Of a stretch of 64,000 bases of DNA, positions 5,289 through 53,900 are shown in pieces. The notes under the pieces are model-generated. The model searched no databases, had not been told where the DNA came from, and was given only the letters and a program-made list of their open reading frames with translations. Made by a program: the position numbers and the translations under genes. Every line of letters begins with the position of its first letter. The stretch's first letter is position 1. The stretch covers positions 1-64,000 of the forward strand of contig JAUTXP010000043.1 of the NCBI GenBank assembly GCA_030837965.1, written 5' to 3'. This stretch comes from Acidimicrobiaceae bacterium. GTDB taxonomy: Bacteria; Actinomycetota; Acidimicrobiia; Acidimicrobiales; JAUTXP01.

Positions 5289-5322
5289 ACTTTTCCACAG
5301 CACCTGCTGCTGTGGAAAAGTT
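5288..5322. repeat. palindrome family 1, copy between convergent genes
   Basis: Perfect 15-bp arms AACTTTTCCACAGCA and TGCTGTGGAAAAGTT around the loop CCTGC. It starts on the last base of the upstream stop codon and ends 7 nt before the convergent ligD-polymerase stop. The U-rich part is 5' and the A-rich part 3' of the stem, the reverse of an intrinsic terminator, though the location suggests a transcript-end function on both strands. Confidence 0.9.
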
Positions 5323-17645: not shown

Positions 17646-17676
17646 CTTTTCCACAGCACCTGCTGCTGTGGAAAAG
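17646..17676. repeat. palindrome family 1, copy between helD and fliA
   Basis: CTTTTCCACAGCA, loop CCTGC, TGCTGTGGAAAAG: perfect 13-bp arms, 14 nt after the helD stop and 17 nt before the convergent fliA stop. The sequence matches the copies at 5288, 30282, 33076 and 51218. Confidence 0.9.
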
Positions 17677-19601: not shown

Positions 19602-20006
19602 ATGAGCTTGCAGGCGTTCTCCGACGTGTTGTTCCAAGAGCGGCGGCTCTTGGAACTCCTGCTGTTCAAGCTGGAGACCGAGCGCCTGTTGTTGGATGCG
19701 GGGCGCACGCGGTGGCTTGCGCATGCCAGTCGGGAGATCGACACGCTGTTGGACGAGCTGAACAAGGTGGAGCTGGCCCGGTCGGTGACACTGGCCCAGG
19801 TCGCGCCCGAGTTGGGGCTGGGGCCGGACGCCACGCTGTCGACGGTGGCGTCGACCGTGCCCTCGCCATGGGGCGGGATCTTCGCCGAGCACCGCGACGA
19901 CTTGCAGTCCCTCATGGGTGACGTGTTGGCCGCGGCCGAGTCGAGCAGGCACTTGTTGCGCGAGGGCTACGACTCCATCCGCCAGGCCTTGGAGGCGACC
20001 GGGTGA
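19602..20006 (+). CDS. flgN: flagellar export chaperone FlgN-like protein
   Basis: A 134-aa all-helical protein resembling FlgN, the chaperone for the hook-filament junction proteins FlgK and FlgL. The opening FSDVLFQERRLLELLLFKLE, then LLLDAGRTRWLAHASREIDT, and a leucine-rich C-terminal helix are characteristic of actinobacterial FlgN. It carries a plausible sigma-28 promoter directly upstream and lies near fliA, which supports the assignment. Its stop overlaps the GTG of a 63-aa gene. The usual next genes, flgK and flgL, are absent. Confidence 0.72.
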   Translation: MSLQAFSDVLFQERRLLELLLFKLETERLLLDAGRTRWLAHASREIDTLLDELNKVELARSVTLAQVAPELGLGPDATLSTVASTVPSPWGGIFAEHRDDLQSLMGDVLAAAESSRHLLREGYDSIRQALEATG

Positions 20007-25443: not shown

Positions 25444-28400
25444 ATGGTGAAGAAGCTGCTCGCCTCCTTCCCGGCCTGGCCCGCGCTGCGCCAGCTCACC
25501 ACGGACGATCGCAGCGGCCATCGGCACGCGGCCATGTCGACCGCCACCGCTGCCCTGCACCCGCGCACCATCGACGCCGACTCGGTCGTGTCCAGCATCT
25601 GTCCCTACTGCGCGGTGGGCTGCGGGCAGCGGGTGTACGTGCAGGACGGGCGCATCACCCAGATCGAGGGCGACCCCGACAGCCCGGTGTCGCGGGGCAG
25701 GCTGTGCCCGAAGGGGGCGGCGACCAAGAGCCTGGTCACCGGGCCTGGCCGCGAGAAGAAGGTGAAGTACCGCCCGCCGTACGCGACCGAATGGCAGGAC
25801 CTCGACTTGGACGAGGCCATGGACCGCATCGCCGAGCGGGTCATCGCCACTCGCAACGAGACGTGGGACCCCGTCCACAAGCGAACCCTCGGCTTTGCCA
25901 GCCTCGGAGGAGCGACCCTCGACAACGAGGAGAACTACCTCATGAAGAAGCTGTATACGGCCTTGGGCGCCATCCAGATCGAGAACCAGGCCCGCATCTG
26001 ACACTCGTCCACCGTGCCCGGTCTGGGCACCTCGTTCGGAAGAGGCGGCGCCACCACGTTCCAGCAGGACCTGGCCAACGCCGACTGCATCGTCATCATG
26101 GGGTCGAACACGGCCGAGTGCCATCCGGTCGGGTTCCAGTGGGTGATGGAGGCCAAGGACCGCGGCGCCAAGGTCATCCACATCGACCCCCGCTTCACTC
26201 GCACCAGCGCGGTGAGCGACCTGCACGTGCCGCTCCGGGCGGGCAGCGACATCGTCTTTTTGGGCGCCATCGTCAACCACATCCTCAGCAACGAGCGGGA
26301 CTTCCGCGAGTACGTCGTGAGCTACACGAACGCGGCGGCCATCATCGACGAGGGGTTCCAGGACACCGACGATCTCGACGGGCTCTTCTCCGGTTGGGAT
26401 GCGGAGTCGGCGGCCTATGACCCGGCCACATGGCAGTACGCGGGCAACTCCGGTAGCGGCGACGGGCCGGGCGGGCAAGGCAGCACCGATGTGGGCGCCG
26501 ACACCCACGGCGGTCACGGGCCGCCCACCGGCGGCCATCCCGAGATGACCGACCCGACCCTGCAGCACCCCCGCTGCGTCTACCAACTGCTCAAGCGCCA
26601 CTTCGCCCGCTACACGCCCGAGCTGGTCGAGGAGCTGTGCGGCGTGCCCCCGCACCTGTTCGCCCAGGTGGCCGACGCGCTGTGCGAGAACTCGGGCCGG
26701 GAGCGCACGTCGGCCTTTTGCTACGCGGTGGGCTGGACCCAGCACACGGTGGGCGTGCAGTACATCCGCACCGCGTCGATCGTCCAGCTCCTGCTGGGCA
26801 ACATCGGCCGACCCGGCGGCGGGATCATGGCCCTGCGGGGCCACGCCAGCATCCAAGGCTCAACCGACATCCCCACCCTCTACAACATCCTCCCCGGCTA
26901 TCTCCCCATGCCCGACGCCGAGACCGCCGACCTCGACGACTACGTCGAGCGCAACGCGGCCAAGACCGGCTTCTGGGGCAACATGCGCGCCTACATGGTC
27001 AGCCTGCTCAAGGCCTATTGGGGCGACGCGGCCAGGTCCGACAACGACTTCTGCTTCGACTGGCTGCCCCGTCTGACGGGTGACCACTCGACCTACCAGA
27101 CGATGCTCGACATGCTCGACGGCAAGGTGCGGGGCATGTTCGTGATGGGCGAGAACCCGGCCGTCGGGTCGGCCAACTCCAAGCTGCATCGCATGGCCAT
27201 GGCCAAGCTCGACTGGCTCGTCGTGCGCGACTTCTCCGAGATCGAGTCGGCGTCGTTCTGGTACGACGGGCCCGAGATCGAGACCGGGGAGATGACGACC
27301 GAGCAAATCCCTACCGAGGTCTTCCTGCTTCCCGCCGCTTCTCACACCGAGAAGGACGGGAGCTTCACCAACACCCAGCGCATGCTCCAGTGGCACCACA
27401 AGGCGGTGGAGCCGGAAGGCGACGCCCGGTCCGAGCTGTGGTTCTCCTTCCACCTGGGCCGCATCATCCGCGACAAGCTCCGCTCGTCGGCCGACATTGA
27501 CAACGCCAAGGACAGGCCCGTGCTGGATTTGGCATGGGACTACCCGACCGAGGGCGCGTTGGACGAGCCGTCGGCCGCGGCCGTGCTGCGCGAGATCAAC
27601 GGGTGGGGCGCAGACGGCAAGGCGCTGGGCGGGTTCGCCGACTTGGCCGACGACGGGTCGACTGCATGCGGCTGTTGGATCTACTGCGGCTGCTACGCGG
27701 ACGAGGTCAACCAGACGGCCCGTCGCAAGCCGGGCCAGGACCAGAACTGGGTCGCGCCCGAATGGGGGTGGGCCTGGCCCGCCAACCGGCGCATCCTCTA
27801 CAACCGGGCCTCGGCCGACCCGGACGGCAAGCCGTGGTCGGAGCGCAAGCGCTACGTCTGGTGGGACGAGGGCGCGGGGGAGTGGACCGGCTTCGACGTG
27901 CCTGACTTCGAGAAGACGAAGCGCCCCGATTACCAACCGCCCGAAGGGGCTGTGGCCCAGCACGCGCTGGCGGGTGACGACCCGTTCATCATGCAGGCCG
28001 ACGGCAAGGGCTGGCTGTTCGTGCCCAACGGCTTGAAGGACGGGCCGTTGCCCGCGCACTACGAGCCCGACGAGTCGCCGTTCCACAACCCGCTGTATTC
28101 GCAACAGGCCAACCCAGCCCGGCAGCGGTACCCGCGACCGGGCAACGAGCACAACGACCCCGATCTGTTCCCGTACGTGATGACCACCTACCGGCTCACC
28201 GAGCACCACACCGCGGGTGGCATGTCCCGCTTCGTCGACGTGCTGTCCGAGTTGCAGCCCGAGTTCTTCTGCGAGGTCTCGCCCGAACTGGCCGCCGAGA
28301 GGGGGCTCGAGCACGGCGGGTGGGCCACCATCATCTCGTCCCGAACGGCCATCGAGGCGCGCGTCCTGGTGACCGACCGCATCCCGCCGCTGCGGGTGCA

Positions 28401-28620
28401 GGGCCGGGTCATGCATCAAGTGGGGCTGCCCTACCACTGGGGCCAGCGCGGCCTGTCCACGGGCGACTCGGCCAACGACTTGTTCCCCCTGACCCTCGAC
28501 CCCAACGTGCACATCCAAGAGGTGAAGGCGGCCACCTGCGACATCCGGCCCGGGCGCAGGCCGCGCGGCCCGGCGCTGCCCGCGATGGTGGCCGAGTACC
28601 GCGAGGGCAGACATGGCTGA
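25444..28620 (+). CDS. fdhA: formate dehydrogenase catalytic subunit, selenocysteine-containing (UGA at 25999-26001)
   Basis: A 1058-aa Mo/W-bisMGD formate dehydrogenase (FdnG type), oxidising formate to CO2. The N-terminal [4Fe-4S] ligands are C53, C56, C60 and C88 (CPYCAVGC, LCPKG). The frame crosses an in-frame TGA at 25999-26001 (codon 186) within ENQARI-U-HSSTVPGLGTSFGRGG, the place where FdnG/FdhF enzymes carry selenocysteine bound to Mo. The frame stays open with family sequence up to 28620. A SECIS hairpin follows directly. No Tat signal is visible at the N-terminus, so the active site is probably cytoplasmic. It overlaps fdhB by 8 nt. Splitting this gene at the UGA would give two false ORFs. 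Confidence 0.95.
25999..26040 (+). promoter_or_regulatory. Sec UGA codon and SECIS element
   Basis: TGA at 25999-26001 is followed, 18 nt after its end, by the loop GGTCT (26020-26024). The loop is closed by GTGCCC (26014-26019) and GGGCAC (26025-26030). The E. coli fdhF SECIS has the same GGUCU apical loop at the same 18-nt distance from its UGA. SelB-dependent decoding is therefore expected. Confidence 0.88.
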
Positions 28621-29407
28621 GCCAGTGGCCGAGCGGGTCGGCTTCTTCACGGACACGTCGGTCTGCATCGGATGCAAGGCGTGCGAGGTGGCGTGCAAGG
28701 AGTGGAACGGCGTCCCCGAGGACGGCCTGCAATGGCTGGGCACGTCGTACGACAACACCGGCGCGCTGGGGGCGAGCACATGGCGGCACGTGGCCTTCAT
28801 TGAGCGCCCGCCCGCGGGCGGTGTTGCGGATGGGGCGCCCGGTGTGGAGTGGCTCATGTCGTCCGACGTGTGCAAGCACTGCACCCACGCGGCCTGCCTC
28901 GACGTGTGCCCGACCGGCTCGCTGTTCCGAACCGAGTTCGGGACCGTGGTGGTGCAGGCCGACATCTGCAACGGCTGCGGCTACTGCGTGCCCGCGTGCC
29001 CGTTCGGCGTCATCGACAAGCGCGAGGACGACGGGCGGGCCTGGAAGTGCACGCTTTGCTACGACCGGCTCAAGGACGGCATGACGCCCGCCTGTGCGCA
29101 AGCGTGCCCGACCACGTCGATCCAGTTCGGGCCGCTGGACGAGTTGCGGGCCCGCGCCCGCCAACGAGTGGCGTCGTTGCATTCGGCCGGTCGCACTGAT
29201 GCCCGGCTGTATGGCGACGACCCCGACGACGGCGTGGGCGGGGCCGCCGCCTTCTTCTTGCTGCTCGACCAGCCCGAGGTCTACGGCCTCCCGTCCGATC
29301 CCGTGGTGACGACTCGCGACCTGCCCCAGATGTGGAAGGCCGCGGGCCGGGCCGCGGCCGTGTTCGCGGTGGGCGTAGCCGCGGCCTTCGCCGGACGGCG
29401 CCGATGA
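28613..29407 (+). CDS. fdhB: formate dehydrogenase iron-sulfur (beta) subunit
   Basis: A 264-aa ferredoxin-type electron-transfer subunit with four [4Fe-4S] cluster motifs: CIGCKACEVACKEW, CKHCTHAACLDVCP, CNGCGYCVPACP and CTLCYDRL with CAQACP. A single hydrophobic C-terminal segment (RAAAVFAVGVAAAFAG) should anchor it to the membrane, as in FdnH. It passes electrons from the catalytic subunit to the NrfD-like partner. Its ATG overlaps the end of fdhA and its stop overlaps the next ATG (ATGA). Confidence 0.95.
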   Translation: MAEPVAERVGFFTDTSVCIGCKACEVACKEWNGVPEDGLQWLGTSYDNTGALGASTWRHVAFIERPPAGGVADGAPGVEWLMSSDVCKHCTHAACLDVCPTGSLFRTEFGTVVVQADICNGCGYCVPACPFGVIDKREDDGRAWKCTLCYDRLKDGMTPACAQACPTTSIQFGPLDELRARARQRVASLHSAGRTDARLYGDDPDDGVGGAAAFFLLLDQPEVYGLPSDPVVTTRDLPQMWKAAGRAAAVFAVGVAAAFAGRRR

Positions 29408-30282
29408 GGGAGCGGGCCGTCGTCCCCAAGGCCGACTTCCGCTCCTACTACGGCAAGCCCATCCTCAAGCGCCCGGTGTGGAAGTGGCAGATCCCGGCCT
29501 ACTTCTTCGCGGGCGGGCTGGCCGCGGGCTCGTCCGCGTTGGCCGCGGGCGCGGGGTGGACGGGTCGACCTGTGTTGCGGCGACGGGCCCGGCTCACTGC
29601 GTTGGGCGCCATCGCGGCCAGCACCGTCTTCTTGATCGACGACCTGGGCCGGCCGGAGCGCTTCTACAACATGCTTCGGGTGGCCAAGCCCAGCAGCCCG
29701 ATGAGCATGGGCAGTTGGCTGTTGGCCGGGTACGGGCCCGCGGTGGGCGCGGCCGCGGCCAGCGAGGTGACCGGCCTGTTGCCGGGCGTGGGCCGGGCCG
29801 CGGGCGTGGCCGCGGCGGCAATGGCCCCGGGCGTGGCCACGTACACGGCGGTGATCCTGGCCGACACGGCCATCCCCGTGTGGCATCAGGCCAAGGACGA
29901 TCTGCCCTGGCTGTTCGCATCGGGCGCGGCGGCGTCGGCCGGCGGTGTGGCCGCGGCGTTGGCGCCGGTGGCCGAGTCCGGCCCGGCCCGTCGACTGGCC
30001 ATCGTCGGCGCGTGCGTTGAGCTGGTCGTGGCCAAGCGCATGGAGGAAGGGTTGGGGTACGTCGGACGCGTCTACGGCGAGGGCTGGGCCGGCCGGCTGT
30101 CGGCCCTGTCGCGTCGGTTGACGGCATCAGGCGCGGCCGTGTTGGTGCTGACCGGCCGGCGTCGATCGGGCGCGGTGGCGGGCGGCCTGCTGGTGGCCGC
30201 GGGCGCCGCCGTCGAGCGCTTCGCGGTGGCCGAGGCGGGCAACCAGTCCGCCGCCGACCCCACCTTCCTCTCACCCCCCTGA
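29404..30282 (+). CDS. nrfD: NrfD-like membrane subunit of formate dehydrogenase
   Basis: A 292-aa polytopic protein of the NrfD/PsrC family, the quinone-reactive membrane subunit replacing a cytochrome b gamma subunit. The N-terminal YYGKPILKRPVWKWQIPAYF is typical. It is followed by about eight hydrophobic helices and LIDDLGRPERFYNMLRVAKP. It ends the fdhA-fdhB-nrfD operon, which should transfer electrons from formate to menaquinone. A family-1 palindrome begins at its stop codon. Confidence 0.9.
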   Translation: MRERAVVPKADFRSYYGKPILKRPVWKWQIPAYFFAGGLAAGSSALAAGAGWTGRPVLRRRARLTALGAIAASTVFLIDDLGRPERFYNMLRVAKPSSPMSMGSWLLAGYGPAVGAAAASEVTGLLPGVGRAAGVAAAAMAPGVATYTAVILADTAIPVWHQAKDDLPWLFASGAAASAGGVAAALAPVAESGPARRLAIVGACVELVVAKRMEEGLGYVGRVYGEGWAGRLSALSRRLTASGAAVLVLTGRRRSGAVAGGLLVAAGAAVERFAVAEAGNQSAADPTFLSPP

Positions 30283-30314
30283 ACTTTTCCACAGCACCTG
30301 TTGCTGTGGAAAAG
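30282..30314. repeat. palindrome family 1, copy after the formate dehydrogenase operon
   Basis: AACTTTTCCACAGCA, loop CCTGT, TGCTGTGGAAAAG. It begins on the last base of the nrfD stop codon. The next gene reads the same way, so this copy is at an operon end rather than between convergent genes. The loop variant CCTGT is shared with the copy at 51218. Confidence 0.9.
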
Positions 30315-33075: not shown

Positions 33076-33110
33076 AACTTTTCCACAGCACCTGCTGCTG
33101 TGGAAAAGTT
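33076..33110. repeat. palindrome family 1, copy between convergent sensor and regulator
   Basis: Perfect 15-bp arms AACTTTTCCACAGCA / TGCTGTGGAAAAGTT with loop CCTGC, identical to the copy at 5288-5322. It is 6 nt after the sensor stop and 9 nt before the convergent regulator stop. Confidence 0.92.
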
Positions 33111-49123: not shown

Positions 49124-50074
49124 ATGGATGACGCAGCCTTTCTCGCCGACTTGGGGCCCACCGTCGAGCGCCTGTTCGAGCGGCATGTGGCCACCTCCAA
49201 GGAGTGGTTCCCGCACCAATTGGTCCCGTGGTCGCAGGGCGAGGACTTCGCCGACGACTGGACGTGGGACGAGGATGCATCGCCCCTGCCCAAGCCGGTG
49301 CGCAGCGCCTTGTTCGTCAACCTGCTGACCGAGGACAACCTGCCGTATTACTTCGCCACCATCTCCCGGGTCTTCGGCGCAGGCGGGGCGTGGGGGGAGT
49401 GGTCGCGGCGCTGGACGGCCGAGGAGCACCGCCACTCAATCGTCATCCGCGACTGGCTCACCGTCACCCGGGCCATCGACCCGGTGGCCTTGGAGCGGGC
49501 CCGCATGCGGCAGGTGTCGGGCGGCCAGGTGCCCGAGCCCCAGTCGGTGGCCGACGGCATGGTGTATGTCGCTTTGCAAGAGCTGGCCACGCGCATCAGC
49601 CATCGCAACACTGGCAAGCTGCTCGACGGCGAGCACGCCCACGGCTATCAGGTGATGGCGCGGGTCGCGGCCGACGAGAACCTGCACTACCTCTTCTACA
49701 AGGACCTGTGCGCGGCGGCCATCGAGGTCGACCCTTCAACCATGGTCGAGGCCATCGACCGGCAGGTGTCGGAGTTCGAGATGCCCGGCACGGGCATCCC
49801 CGGTTTCGTGCGCCACGCCGCCGCGATCGCCAAGGCGGGCATCTACGACGTGGCCGTGCACCACGACGGCATTCTGGTGCCGGTCGTGCTGCGCCAATGG
49901 GGCCTGGAGTCGCTGACCGGCCTGACCCCCGCGGCCGAGCGGGCGCGGGACAGGACGCTGGCGACCATGGCCGAGCTGAACGCCATGGCACGCAAGCACG
50001 AGGCCAAGCGCGAGGCCAAGCGCGGGGGTGGCGGCGGCGCGTCGGTCGACTCGTTGGAGGCGGCGGCCCGATAG
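49124..50074 (+). CDS. acyl-ACP desaturase (soluble diiron type)
   Basis: A 316-aa ferritin-like diiron desaturase (FA_desaturase_2, DesA family) introducing a double bond into acyl-ACP. The iron ligands are in NLLTEDNLPYYFA, TAEEHRHSIVIRDW, ALQELATRISHRN and AADENLHYLFYKDL, the two E-x-x-H sets. The C-terminus is basic (KREAKR) and glycine-rich. The ATG follows the TetR-type palindrome, indicating repression by a lipid-responsive regulator. The DUF1345 gene begins directly after its stop. Confidence 0.93.
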   Translation: MDDAAFLADLGPTVERLFERHVATSKEWFPHQLVPWSQGEDFADDWTWDEDASPLPKPVRSALFVNLLTEDNLPYYFATISRVFGAGGAWGEWSRRWTAEEHRHSIVIRDWLTVTRAIDPVALERARMRQVSGGQVPEPQSVADGMVYVALQELATRISHRNTGKLLDGEHAHGYQVMARVAADENLHYLFYKDLCAAAIEVDPSTMVEAIDRQVSEFEMPGTGIPGFVRHAAAIAKAGIYDVAVHHDGILVPVVLRQWGLESLTGLTPAAERARDRTLATMAELNAMARKHEAKREAKRGGGGGASVDSLEAAAR

Positions 50075-50964: not shown

Positions 50965-53900
50965 ATGCGCGGGTGGACCAAGCACGTCGGGTCGTCATGT
51001 CTGGCCGCCTCGTTGGCCTCATTCGGGATGGCCGCCTTTCCTGCGCCGCCAGCCGCGGCCGCGGTCGTCAAGGCCCCGACGGCGCGCGACGCCCCCGCCC
51101 TGACGCAGGCCTTCGCCGCCGCCATCGCACCCATCCCCGCCCCCAGGATCACGGCCGCCGCACCCGCCGCAGCCCGCGCACCCGCCGCAACCGCCGCGTC
51201 CACCACCCCCACCCCGTACTTTTCCACAGCACCTGTTGCTGTGGAAAAGTTCGAGAGGGCAGGGCCGGCGGCTGCGGCACTGGCCAGTACGCCGCCGGCC
51301 TGCACCACCACCTTCACCGGCGCCCAAGACCTGAGCTGGGGCAACCTCAACAACTGGACCGGCGGCGCCGTCCCCGGCTCGGGCGACGTGGTCTGCGTCA
51401 CCGGCTCGGCCGTCCCCTCCTACAACGCCACGTCCAGCATCGTCGCCCTCAACGCGCCCAGCGGCTTGACGCTGGTCGGCGGCCAGCTCATCTTGAGTGA
51501 CACCACGCCGGGCGAGGGCTCGACCGTCACCGGACTCTCGATGAGCGCGGGCCGCCTCAGCGCGGCGGGCGCCCTCATCATCACGGGCACGTCGAGCGCC
51601 AACGGCATCATCGACGCCGCCACCCTCGACCTGCCCACCGGCTCGTCGCTGAGCGCGCCGAACCTCACCATCAACCCGGCGTCGACCACGCTGGTCGTCG
51701 ACAGCCATGGCGCGCTCACCGTTCCCGACGCCGGGACCCTCACCGTCAACGGCACCTTCAAGAACGGCACTGGTTCGAGCATCGCGGGCGCGGGCACGGG
51801 CGCCGCCACTGTGTCCGTGTTCGACGAGACGACAGGCACCACCACCGGCACGCCGGTCAACGTGGTCGACCAACTGCACCTCACCGGGCTGGGCGCGTCG
51901 AGCTTCGCCGTGCCGCCGAACCACACCGTCGCCCTGACCGGCAACATCGGCCCGAACCAGACCGTCAGCGTGATCGGCCTCGACGGTTGCGGCGGCAGCT
52001 TCCCGGCCACGCTGACCGCCACCAGCTTCACCGTGCACGGCCACCTCAACCTCGTCCACTCCAGCACGTGTGGCGGGGGGACGGCGGCGCTACAGGTGAG
52101 CGGCATCGCAACCATCGCATCGGACGGCACCTTCACCTCCACCGGCCCGAACCCGGCGGTGCCGATGGCCGTCTTGGGCAACGTGGTCAACCAGGGCACC
52201 GCGCACTTCGACGGCGCCACCACCACCTTCGGCACGTCCGGGGCCACGTGGACCAACGCGGGCTCACTCGACCTGACGGCAGGGTCGACGCTGATCTTCA
52301 GCCCCGGCACCTTCCTCGTCAACGCCGCGGGCGGCACCGTGAGCAACCACGGCACCTTCTATGTCGACGGCGACCTCACGCAAGGCGACGGCACCGCGCC
52401 GGGCGAGGGCCAGACGGCGCTCGACCAGCCCGGCCCTTACAACGACCTCCAACTTCGCAGCGGCTCGGTGGTCCACTTCACCGGAACCGGCGTGGCCGGG
52501 CTGGCCGTCCCGCCCAACAACGGCACCACATTCACGGGGGCCATCGCGCCGGGGCAGCGGCTGACCGCCATCGGCTTGGACGGGTGCGGTGGAAGCTTTC
52601 CCGCCAGCGTCACGTCCGACCCGAATGCCGACGTGTCGTCCGCGGGCACCATCGAGCTGCGCCACTCCTCGACCTGCGGCGGCGGGAATGCCGGCCTCGT
52701 GGTGGCGTCGGGCCACACCCTCACCAGCACCGGCCTGATCAAGGTCGACGGGGAGAACGGCCCGCACTCCATGGCCGGGACGATCATCTCGTCGGGCCAG
52801 TACGTGCAGACGGTGGGGGCGCTGTCGCAGACAGGCGACTTCACCAACCAGGGCACCTTCACCATGGCCGCGGGCACCACGTTCACCGGTGTGAACGGCT
52901 CGACCTTCCGCAACGGGCAAGGCGGGTCGATGGCCTTGGCCAAGGCAGCGGACCAAGGCCCGGCCGCGGCCGACTTCACCCACGCGGGCACGTTCCTGCA
53001 AGGCGCGGGCACCACCGACCCGGCCTTGCAGCCGGTCAACGTGGTGAACACGCTGACGTTCACTGGCGAAGGACATTCCAGCTTCGTCGTGCCGCCCAAC
53101 CACGCCATCACCCTGTCGGGCGACATGGTCGCAGGACAGGTCCTCACCGTCGTGGGACTCGACAGTTGCGGCGGCAGCTTCCCGGGCACGGCCAACGTGG
53201 TCGAGGACATGGTGAGCGCGGGCGACGTCCACCTGACCCACTCGTCCACGTGCGGCGGGGGCACGTCGTTCCTCAATGTGGCCGCGGGCAAGACGTTCAC
53301 CAACGTGGGCCACCTCTTCCTCGACGGCGAGCCCAGCGACCTCGCCCACCTCCTGGGCGGAACCGTGGTCAACGAGGGGACGATGAACGTCGTCTCCGGC
53401 AAGTCGGCGCTGGCTCAGGCGGCCAATGGCGTGGCTGCCGGCTCGCTGATCAACCTCGGCTCTCTCACGGTCGCGTCTCCGGCCACGCTGTCCGTGCCCG
53501 CCGGCACCTCCTTCACCAACGGCCAGACCACGGCCAACGGGCCGACGGGGACGCCGATCTCCGTGCAGAACGACGGCATCCTGGCGTCCGCAGGCACGGT
53601 GTGGCAGGGCGCGGGCACCACCGCAGGCAACCCGGTCATGGTCAGCGGCACCATGGCCTACACGGGCTCAGGTGCGTCGCACTACGAGGTCCCCGCCAAC
53701 AGCACGCTTGCCCTGTCGGGCAACGTGTCGCCCAACCAGACCCTCACCATCGTGGGCCACGACAGTTGCGGCGGAAGCTTCCCGGGCACCGTCAACGCCA
53801 CGGGCAGCTTCACCAACGCGGGAACGGTGGAGCTGTTCCACAGCAGCACGTGTGCCGGAGGCCAGTCCACGCTGGTCATCCCCACGGGCGCCACCTTCAC

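Follow-up and report, generated by a model that had tools for sequence, protein, structure and literature searches.

The fdhABC locus

The window analysed here, a 64,000-nt stretch from an Acidimicrobiaceae bacterium, contains a three-gene operon, fdhABC, whose first gene is interrupted by an in-frame TGA, almost certainly the selenocysteine (Sec) codon of a membrane-bound formate dehydrogenase. The features of the locus are as follows.

25444–28620, + strand: fdhA, FdnG-type catalytic (alpha) subunit, 1058 aa with Sec186, NCBIfam NF041513 formate_DH_Act
25999–26001, + strand: UGA, predicted to be read as selenocysteine 186, with the conserved active-site His187 next; found at the same place in 14 orthologs from the order and in 67 named genomes
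26014–26030, + strand: putative SECIS hairpin GUGCCC-GGUCU-GGGCAC, stem 26014–26019 with 26025–26030 (6 bp), loop GGUCU at 26020–26024
28613–29407, + strand: fdhB, beta subunit; carries four Fe-S cysteine motifs, is hydrophobic over a C-terminal stretch and overlaps the fdhA stop
29404–30282, + strand: fdhC, NrfD-type membrane subunit (PF03916), presumed quinone site
30284–30314, no strand assigned: palindrome CTTTTCCACAGCACCTGTTGCTGTGGAAAAG, which follows immediately on the fdhC stop and may mark where the operon ends (3')

The TGA at 25999–26001 is codon 186 of the frame 25444–28620 and its sole interruption before the final TGA at 28618–28620. Under the standard code the region yields a product of 185 aa and a separate open frame (26014–28620) of 868 aa, so that default gene callers would split the gene, as had been anticipated. 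When read through, the alpha subunit matches NF041513 over its whole length (1905 bits, cut-off 1400), with no difference found from other members of that family, and also matches TIGR01553 (948 bits, cut-off 814). In the alignment, the UGA sits on the X (Sec) of E. coli FdnG (1kqf), and likewise on that of 1h0h and 8cm4, i.e. at the Mo/W-ligand position and immediately before a His, in the sequence NQARI-U-HSSTV. The original prediction had placed it at the Sec position of FdnG/FdhF, and this alignment, in which the codon falls on the metal ligand rather than away from it, agrees. The Fe4S4 motif, the cofactor-binding domains, the Lys after LCP and the Arg of ALRGH are likewise present, as judged by Pfam, motif positions and alignment. 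Family profile and ligand position thus identify the protein as a probable Sec formate dehydrogenase with predicted formate-oxidising activity. The 14 orthologs found in other families of the order each have one TGA, and always at this codon. The named orthologs considered below are the best 80 of at least 579 related stretches and were chosen as the nearest relatives of a Sec-type query, and Cys forms may be under-sampled among them.

The fdhB product is FdnH-like, scoring under the TIGR01582 cut-off, and the fdhC start overlaps the fdhB stop (ATGA). No Tat signal was found on the window's alpha protein, and an RR-like match occurs in only four of 92 related alpha N-termini, none of the four being convincing on inspection. 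When held against the periplasmic Fdn enzyme of the E. coli type, the locus therefore differs in two respects, the alpha subunit having no Tat signal and the gamma subunit being NrfD (PF03916) rather than a cytochrome b. Because of these two features the complex, although FdnG-like in its catalytic subunit, is predicted to lack both the export and the cytochrome b link of the E. coli enzyme.

The palindrome after fdhC belongs to a set of near-identical 29-bp copies of CTTTTCCACAGCACCTGYTGCTGTGGAAAAG, found in the window at 5291–5319, 17647–17675, 30285–30313, 33079–33107 and 51220–51248. The pattern gives these five copies in the window and none in shuffles, 168 copies in the 3.55-Mb genome, and a hit in just one of 58 other genomes of the order, as one copy of a loose pattern. 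Of the 20 copies that were read, many sit no more than about 30 nt from the 3' end of a gene, commonly in a gap flanked by convergent genes, and have a C-rich 5' flank and a G-rich 3' flank; one copy lies just before selD. The palindrome may be a genome-specific repeated terminator or REP-like element. Elsewhere in the window, an FlgN-like protein (PF05130, 48.9 bits; 19602–20006, + strand) is encoded about 5 kb upstream of the operon and suggests flagellar genes nearby, and a match to Rfam RF01781 (ASdes sRNA; 49424–49491, − strand; 46.7 bits, gathering threshold 40) could just reflect desaturase coding sequence.

Conservation of the hairpin downstream of the UGA

A stem–loop with apical GGUCU 18 nt downstream of the TGA had been predicted, and it was recovered at 26014–26030: the distance from TGA to loop is exactly 18 nt (26002–26019), the loop reads GGTCT, and all six stem pairs form in 88 of 88 TGA genes of two formate dehydrogenase families, a set that takes in the named orthologs from the best 80 of at least 579 related stretches. 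The bSECIS model specifies a loop of 3–9 nt, a stem of 4–16 bp, a G in the first two loop positions, a distance of 16–37 nt from the UGA and a minimum free energy (MFE) of at most −7.5 kcal/mol (PMC13188914, section 5). The hairpin falls within these limits, with its 5-nt GGUCU loop, 6-bp stem and 18-nt spacing, and its MFE of −13.2 kcal/mol for 42 nt does so too, although such a value is weak evidence in GC-rich DNA. Indeed, single-sequence folding was rejected as proof of the hairpin, as the region gave z = −0.11 and 84 of 200 shuffles folded as well; Rfam models, applied to the window with their gathering thresholds, gave no SECIS-type match.

Comparison between genes was more informative than energy. 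Across 21 sequences the covariation score was 0.339, against 0.132 ± 0.027 for shuffles, none of 500 of which reached it, and at most 0.123 for controls with slid partners. In these sequences every one of the six pairs is formed in 100% of cells, and ten cells have changed on both sides (shuffles, 2.3 ± 1.2). In the 58 distinct sequences from the main family, mutual information peaks at pair 18–30 (0.63, against 0.34 for the second-ranked column pair), which joins the third codon positions of a Val and a Gly codon and is paired in 100% of them; the best-varying pair of the stem thus lies at silent codon positions and shows compensatory changes. The loop Gly/Ser codon ends in T in 82 of 82 genes (GGT in 59, AGT in 23), while these genes as a whole use GGT for 7.2% of their Gly codons and AGT for 3% of their Ser codons, and the stem Val codon is GTT in 39 of 82 genes, in which GTT accounts for only 1.9% of Val codons. 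Pairing in all 88 TGA genes, covariation above that of shuffles and codon bias at silent sites together indicate that the hairpin is not a chance structure. A covariance model of the SECIS, which was trained on formate dehydrogenases and whose result covers selenoproteins of that SECIS type, found only the fdhA site in the genome (E = 3.5e-13; next, E = 2.56).

Natural variants of the Sec codon were also present among the best 80 of at least 579 related stretches. Orthologs from Streptomyces sp. WMMB 322 and Plantactinospora mayteni (L117, L123) have Cys (TGC) at this site, and in both the hairpin is in decay, with an altered loop and four of the six pairs left. A further 11, labelled Blastococcus, Modestobacter or Geodermatophilus (L067, L073, L089, L098, L101, L105, L106, L112, L114, L119 and L126), have TAG at the Sec codon and keep the hairpin; Sec encoded by UAG with a CUA tRNA-Sec is known for Geodermatophilaceae (PMC5330540). 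UGA with hairpin, UAG with hairpin and Cys without hairpin constitute a three-way natural experiment and, on comparative grounds, a demonstration that selection acts on the hairpin as well as on the protein sequence.

A second formate dehydrogenase family was seen at six loci (L041, L044, L046, L047, L048 and L050) in other families of the order. Its members are about 635 aa long, with an in-frame TGA in the motif CNRT-U-HAPSVVGLAT and a hairpin of the same shape; their best NCBIfam match is TIGR01591, just under cut-off in the two tested. In size they resemble the 640-aa alpha subunit of the cytoplasmic FDH3 of Actinomycetospora.

Selenocysteine machinery and alternative readings of the UGA

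A Sec codon implies selA, selB, selC and selD elsewhere in the genome, as the original prediction pointed out, and a search found all four. The tRNA-Sec scores 65.6 bits (gathering threshold 47) and was given the anticodon tca (UCA) by ARAGORN; selA (392 bits, cut-off 268) adjoins selB (262 bits, cut-off 242) on contig C26, and both selD (335 bits, cut-off 125) and fdhD (173 bits, cut-off 141) are present. The assembly is a draft (88 contigs, contamination estimated at 4.2%) that places the formate dehydrogenase, selAB, selC and selD on four separate contigs; the GC content of these (0.685–0.729) is consistent with a single genome. The sel genes are not clustered with fdhABC here, unlike in other actinobacteria, in which selA or selB occurs in the flanks of 32 loci. 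The SelB protein has a clear family match only over positions 2–373 and a short C-terminal piece, so that its binding of the SECIS is a prediction.

Across 59 genomes of the order, a strong tRNA-Sec was found in 39 and selB in 36 (35 above cut-off and one at 231 bits). Each of the 31 genomes in which a TGA formate dehydrogenase occurs, from one family or the other, also has tRNA-Sec or selB, and such an enzyme is absent from all 18 genomes that have neither (Fisher p = 2e-8), the second family being tallied by 'one TGA' flags, with the TGA position read in six of 17 such genomes. Four of the 31 gave no match for one of the two (G046 the tRNA-Sec; G017, G049 and G054 selB), and all four assemblies comprise at least 150 contigs. 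The further suggestion that Sec machinery is unusual in this lineage did not hold: about two thirds of the sampled families have it, and at least 579 related stretches appear in the named survey. What the locus adds is one selenoprotein, clean and well supported, from an actinobacterial order of high GC content in which such machinery is widespread.

With very high confidence, we take fdhABC to encode a membrane-bound, Mo- or W-dependent formate dehydrogenase whose metal ligand is selenocysteine; the NF041513 match and the UGA at the ligand position thus uphold the enzyme assignment made at the outset. The standard code does stop at TGA, and the codon might be a nonsense mutation in a pseudogene, or a sequencing error for TGG or TGC. 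That explanation has practically no probability, since 81 other orthologs, drawn from many families, have their TGA at that very codon, coding is conserved on both sides of it and the hairpin is under silent-site constraint. The open downstream frame, taken alone, would also fit a UGA read as another amino acid without selenium, through a suppressor tRNA or a changed code; however, TGA does serve as a stop for genes here (as for fdhA, at 28618–28620), the genome has a UCA tRNA-Sec together with selA, selB and selD, and the hairpin is gone where the codon is Cys and retained where it is TAG, and we consider such readthrough very improbable.

It could also be that the UGA does specify Sec but that termination after 185 aa dominates, leaving the gene mostly silent or acting as a selenium switch. 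In E. coli, recoding is 30–40% efficient and selenium-dependent (PMC4513850), and the formate dehydrogenase proteins of Actinomycetospora are low in abundance (PMC7176365). Among the long named loci (from the best 80 of at least 579 related stretches), however, the beta subunit is conserved alongside alpha in 55 of 66 and the gamma subunit in 56 of 66, which indicates that the full complex is used, and we regard a mostly silent gene as improbable.

Proposed function and comparison with known systems

In our reading of the Sec formate dehydrogenase, SelD would provide selenophosphate and SelA would convert Ser-tRNA-Sec (UCA anticodon) to Sec-tRNA-Sec. SelB would carry the latter and bind the hairpin that follows the UGA at 18 nt, and the ribosome would thereby insert Sec instead of terminating. 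The cofactor would be sulfurated by FdhD, and the enzyme is predicted to convert formate to CO2, whose electrons would travel along the alpha and beta Fe-S clusters to reach the NrfD subunit and then, probably, menaquinone. Given the alpha subunit without a Tat signal, formate oxidation would probably take place on the inner (cytoplasmic) face, feeding electrons to the quinone pool.

E. coli FdnGHI is alike in that its alpha and beta subunits are homologous, its Sec is at the same position and 18 nt separate the UGA from the loop, AGUCU. E. coli FdnG, however, bears a Tat signal that the window's alpha subunit lacks, and the gamma subunit here is NrfD, unlike E. coli FdnI, which is a cytochrome b. 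The description of the SECIS as E. coli-like therefore stands for the spacing and the apical loop but not for the bulge or the lower helix: E. coli fdnG (taken from the genome) and fdhF (in what we take to be its sequence) fold with a bulge in the upper stem, whereas the window and its actinobacterial relatives have an uninterrupted 6-bp helix in 88 of 88 genes. A lower helix as in E. coli was unsupported, alifold finding none conserved in the alignment. The bulge-less 6-bp stem and RGUYU loop are common to the two formate dehydrogenase families and retained where the codon is UAG. It is conceivable, though doubtful, that bulge-less stem, five-base RGUYU loop and a SelB with a divergent C-terminus define an actinobacterial SECIS class of their own; if so, the SelB–SECIS recognition code would differ from that of the E. 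coli type.

Among bacterial selenoprotein families, formate dehydrogenase alpha has the widest distribution (PMC5029168), and close parallels to the present locus are known. Actinomycetospora chiangmaiensis has three Sec formate dehydrogenases and needs selenite for formate removal; its FDH1 likewise combines a Sec FdhA (1078 aa) with a beta and a gamma subunit, but its cluster holds selA and selB, which are here on another contig (PMC7176365). Corynebacterium aurimucosum, also an actinobacterium with selABCD, has an internal UGA in fdnG, which is clustered with sel genes, unlike the window's fdhA (PMC2830990). The locus is thus an ordinary one, a Sec formate dehydrogenase as in many other actinobacteria, whose alpha subunit is already modelled by NF041513.
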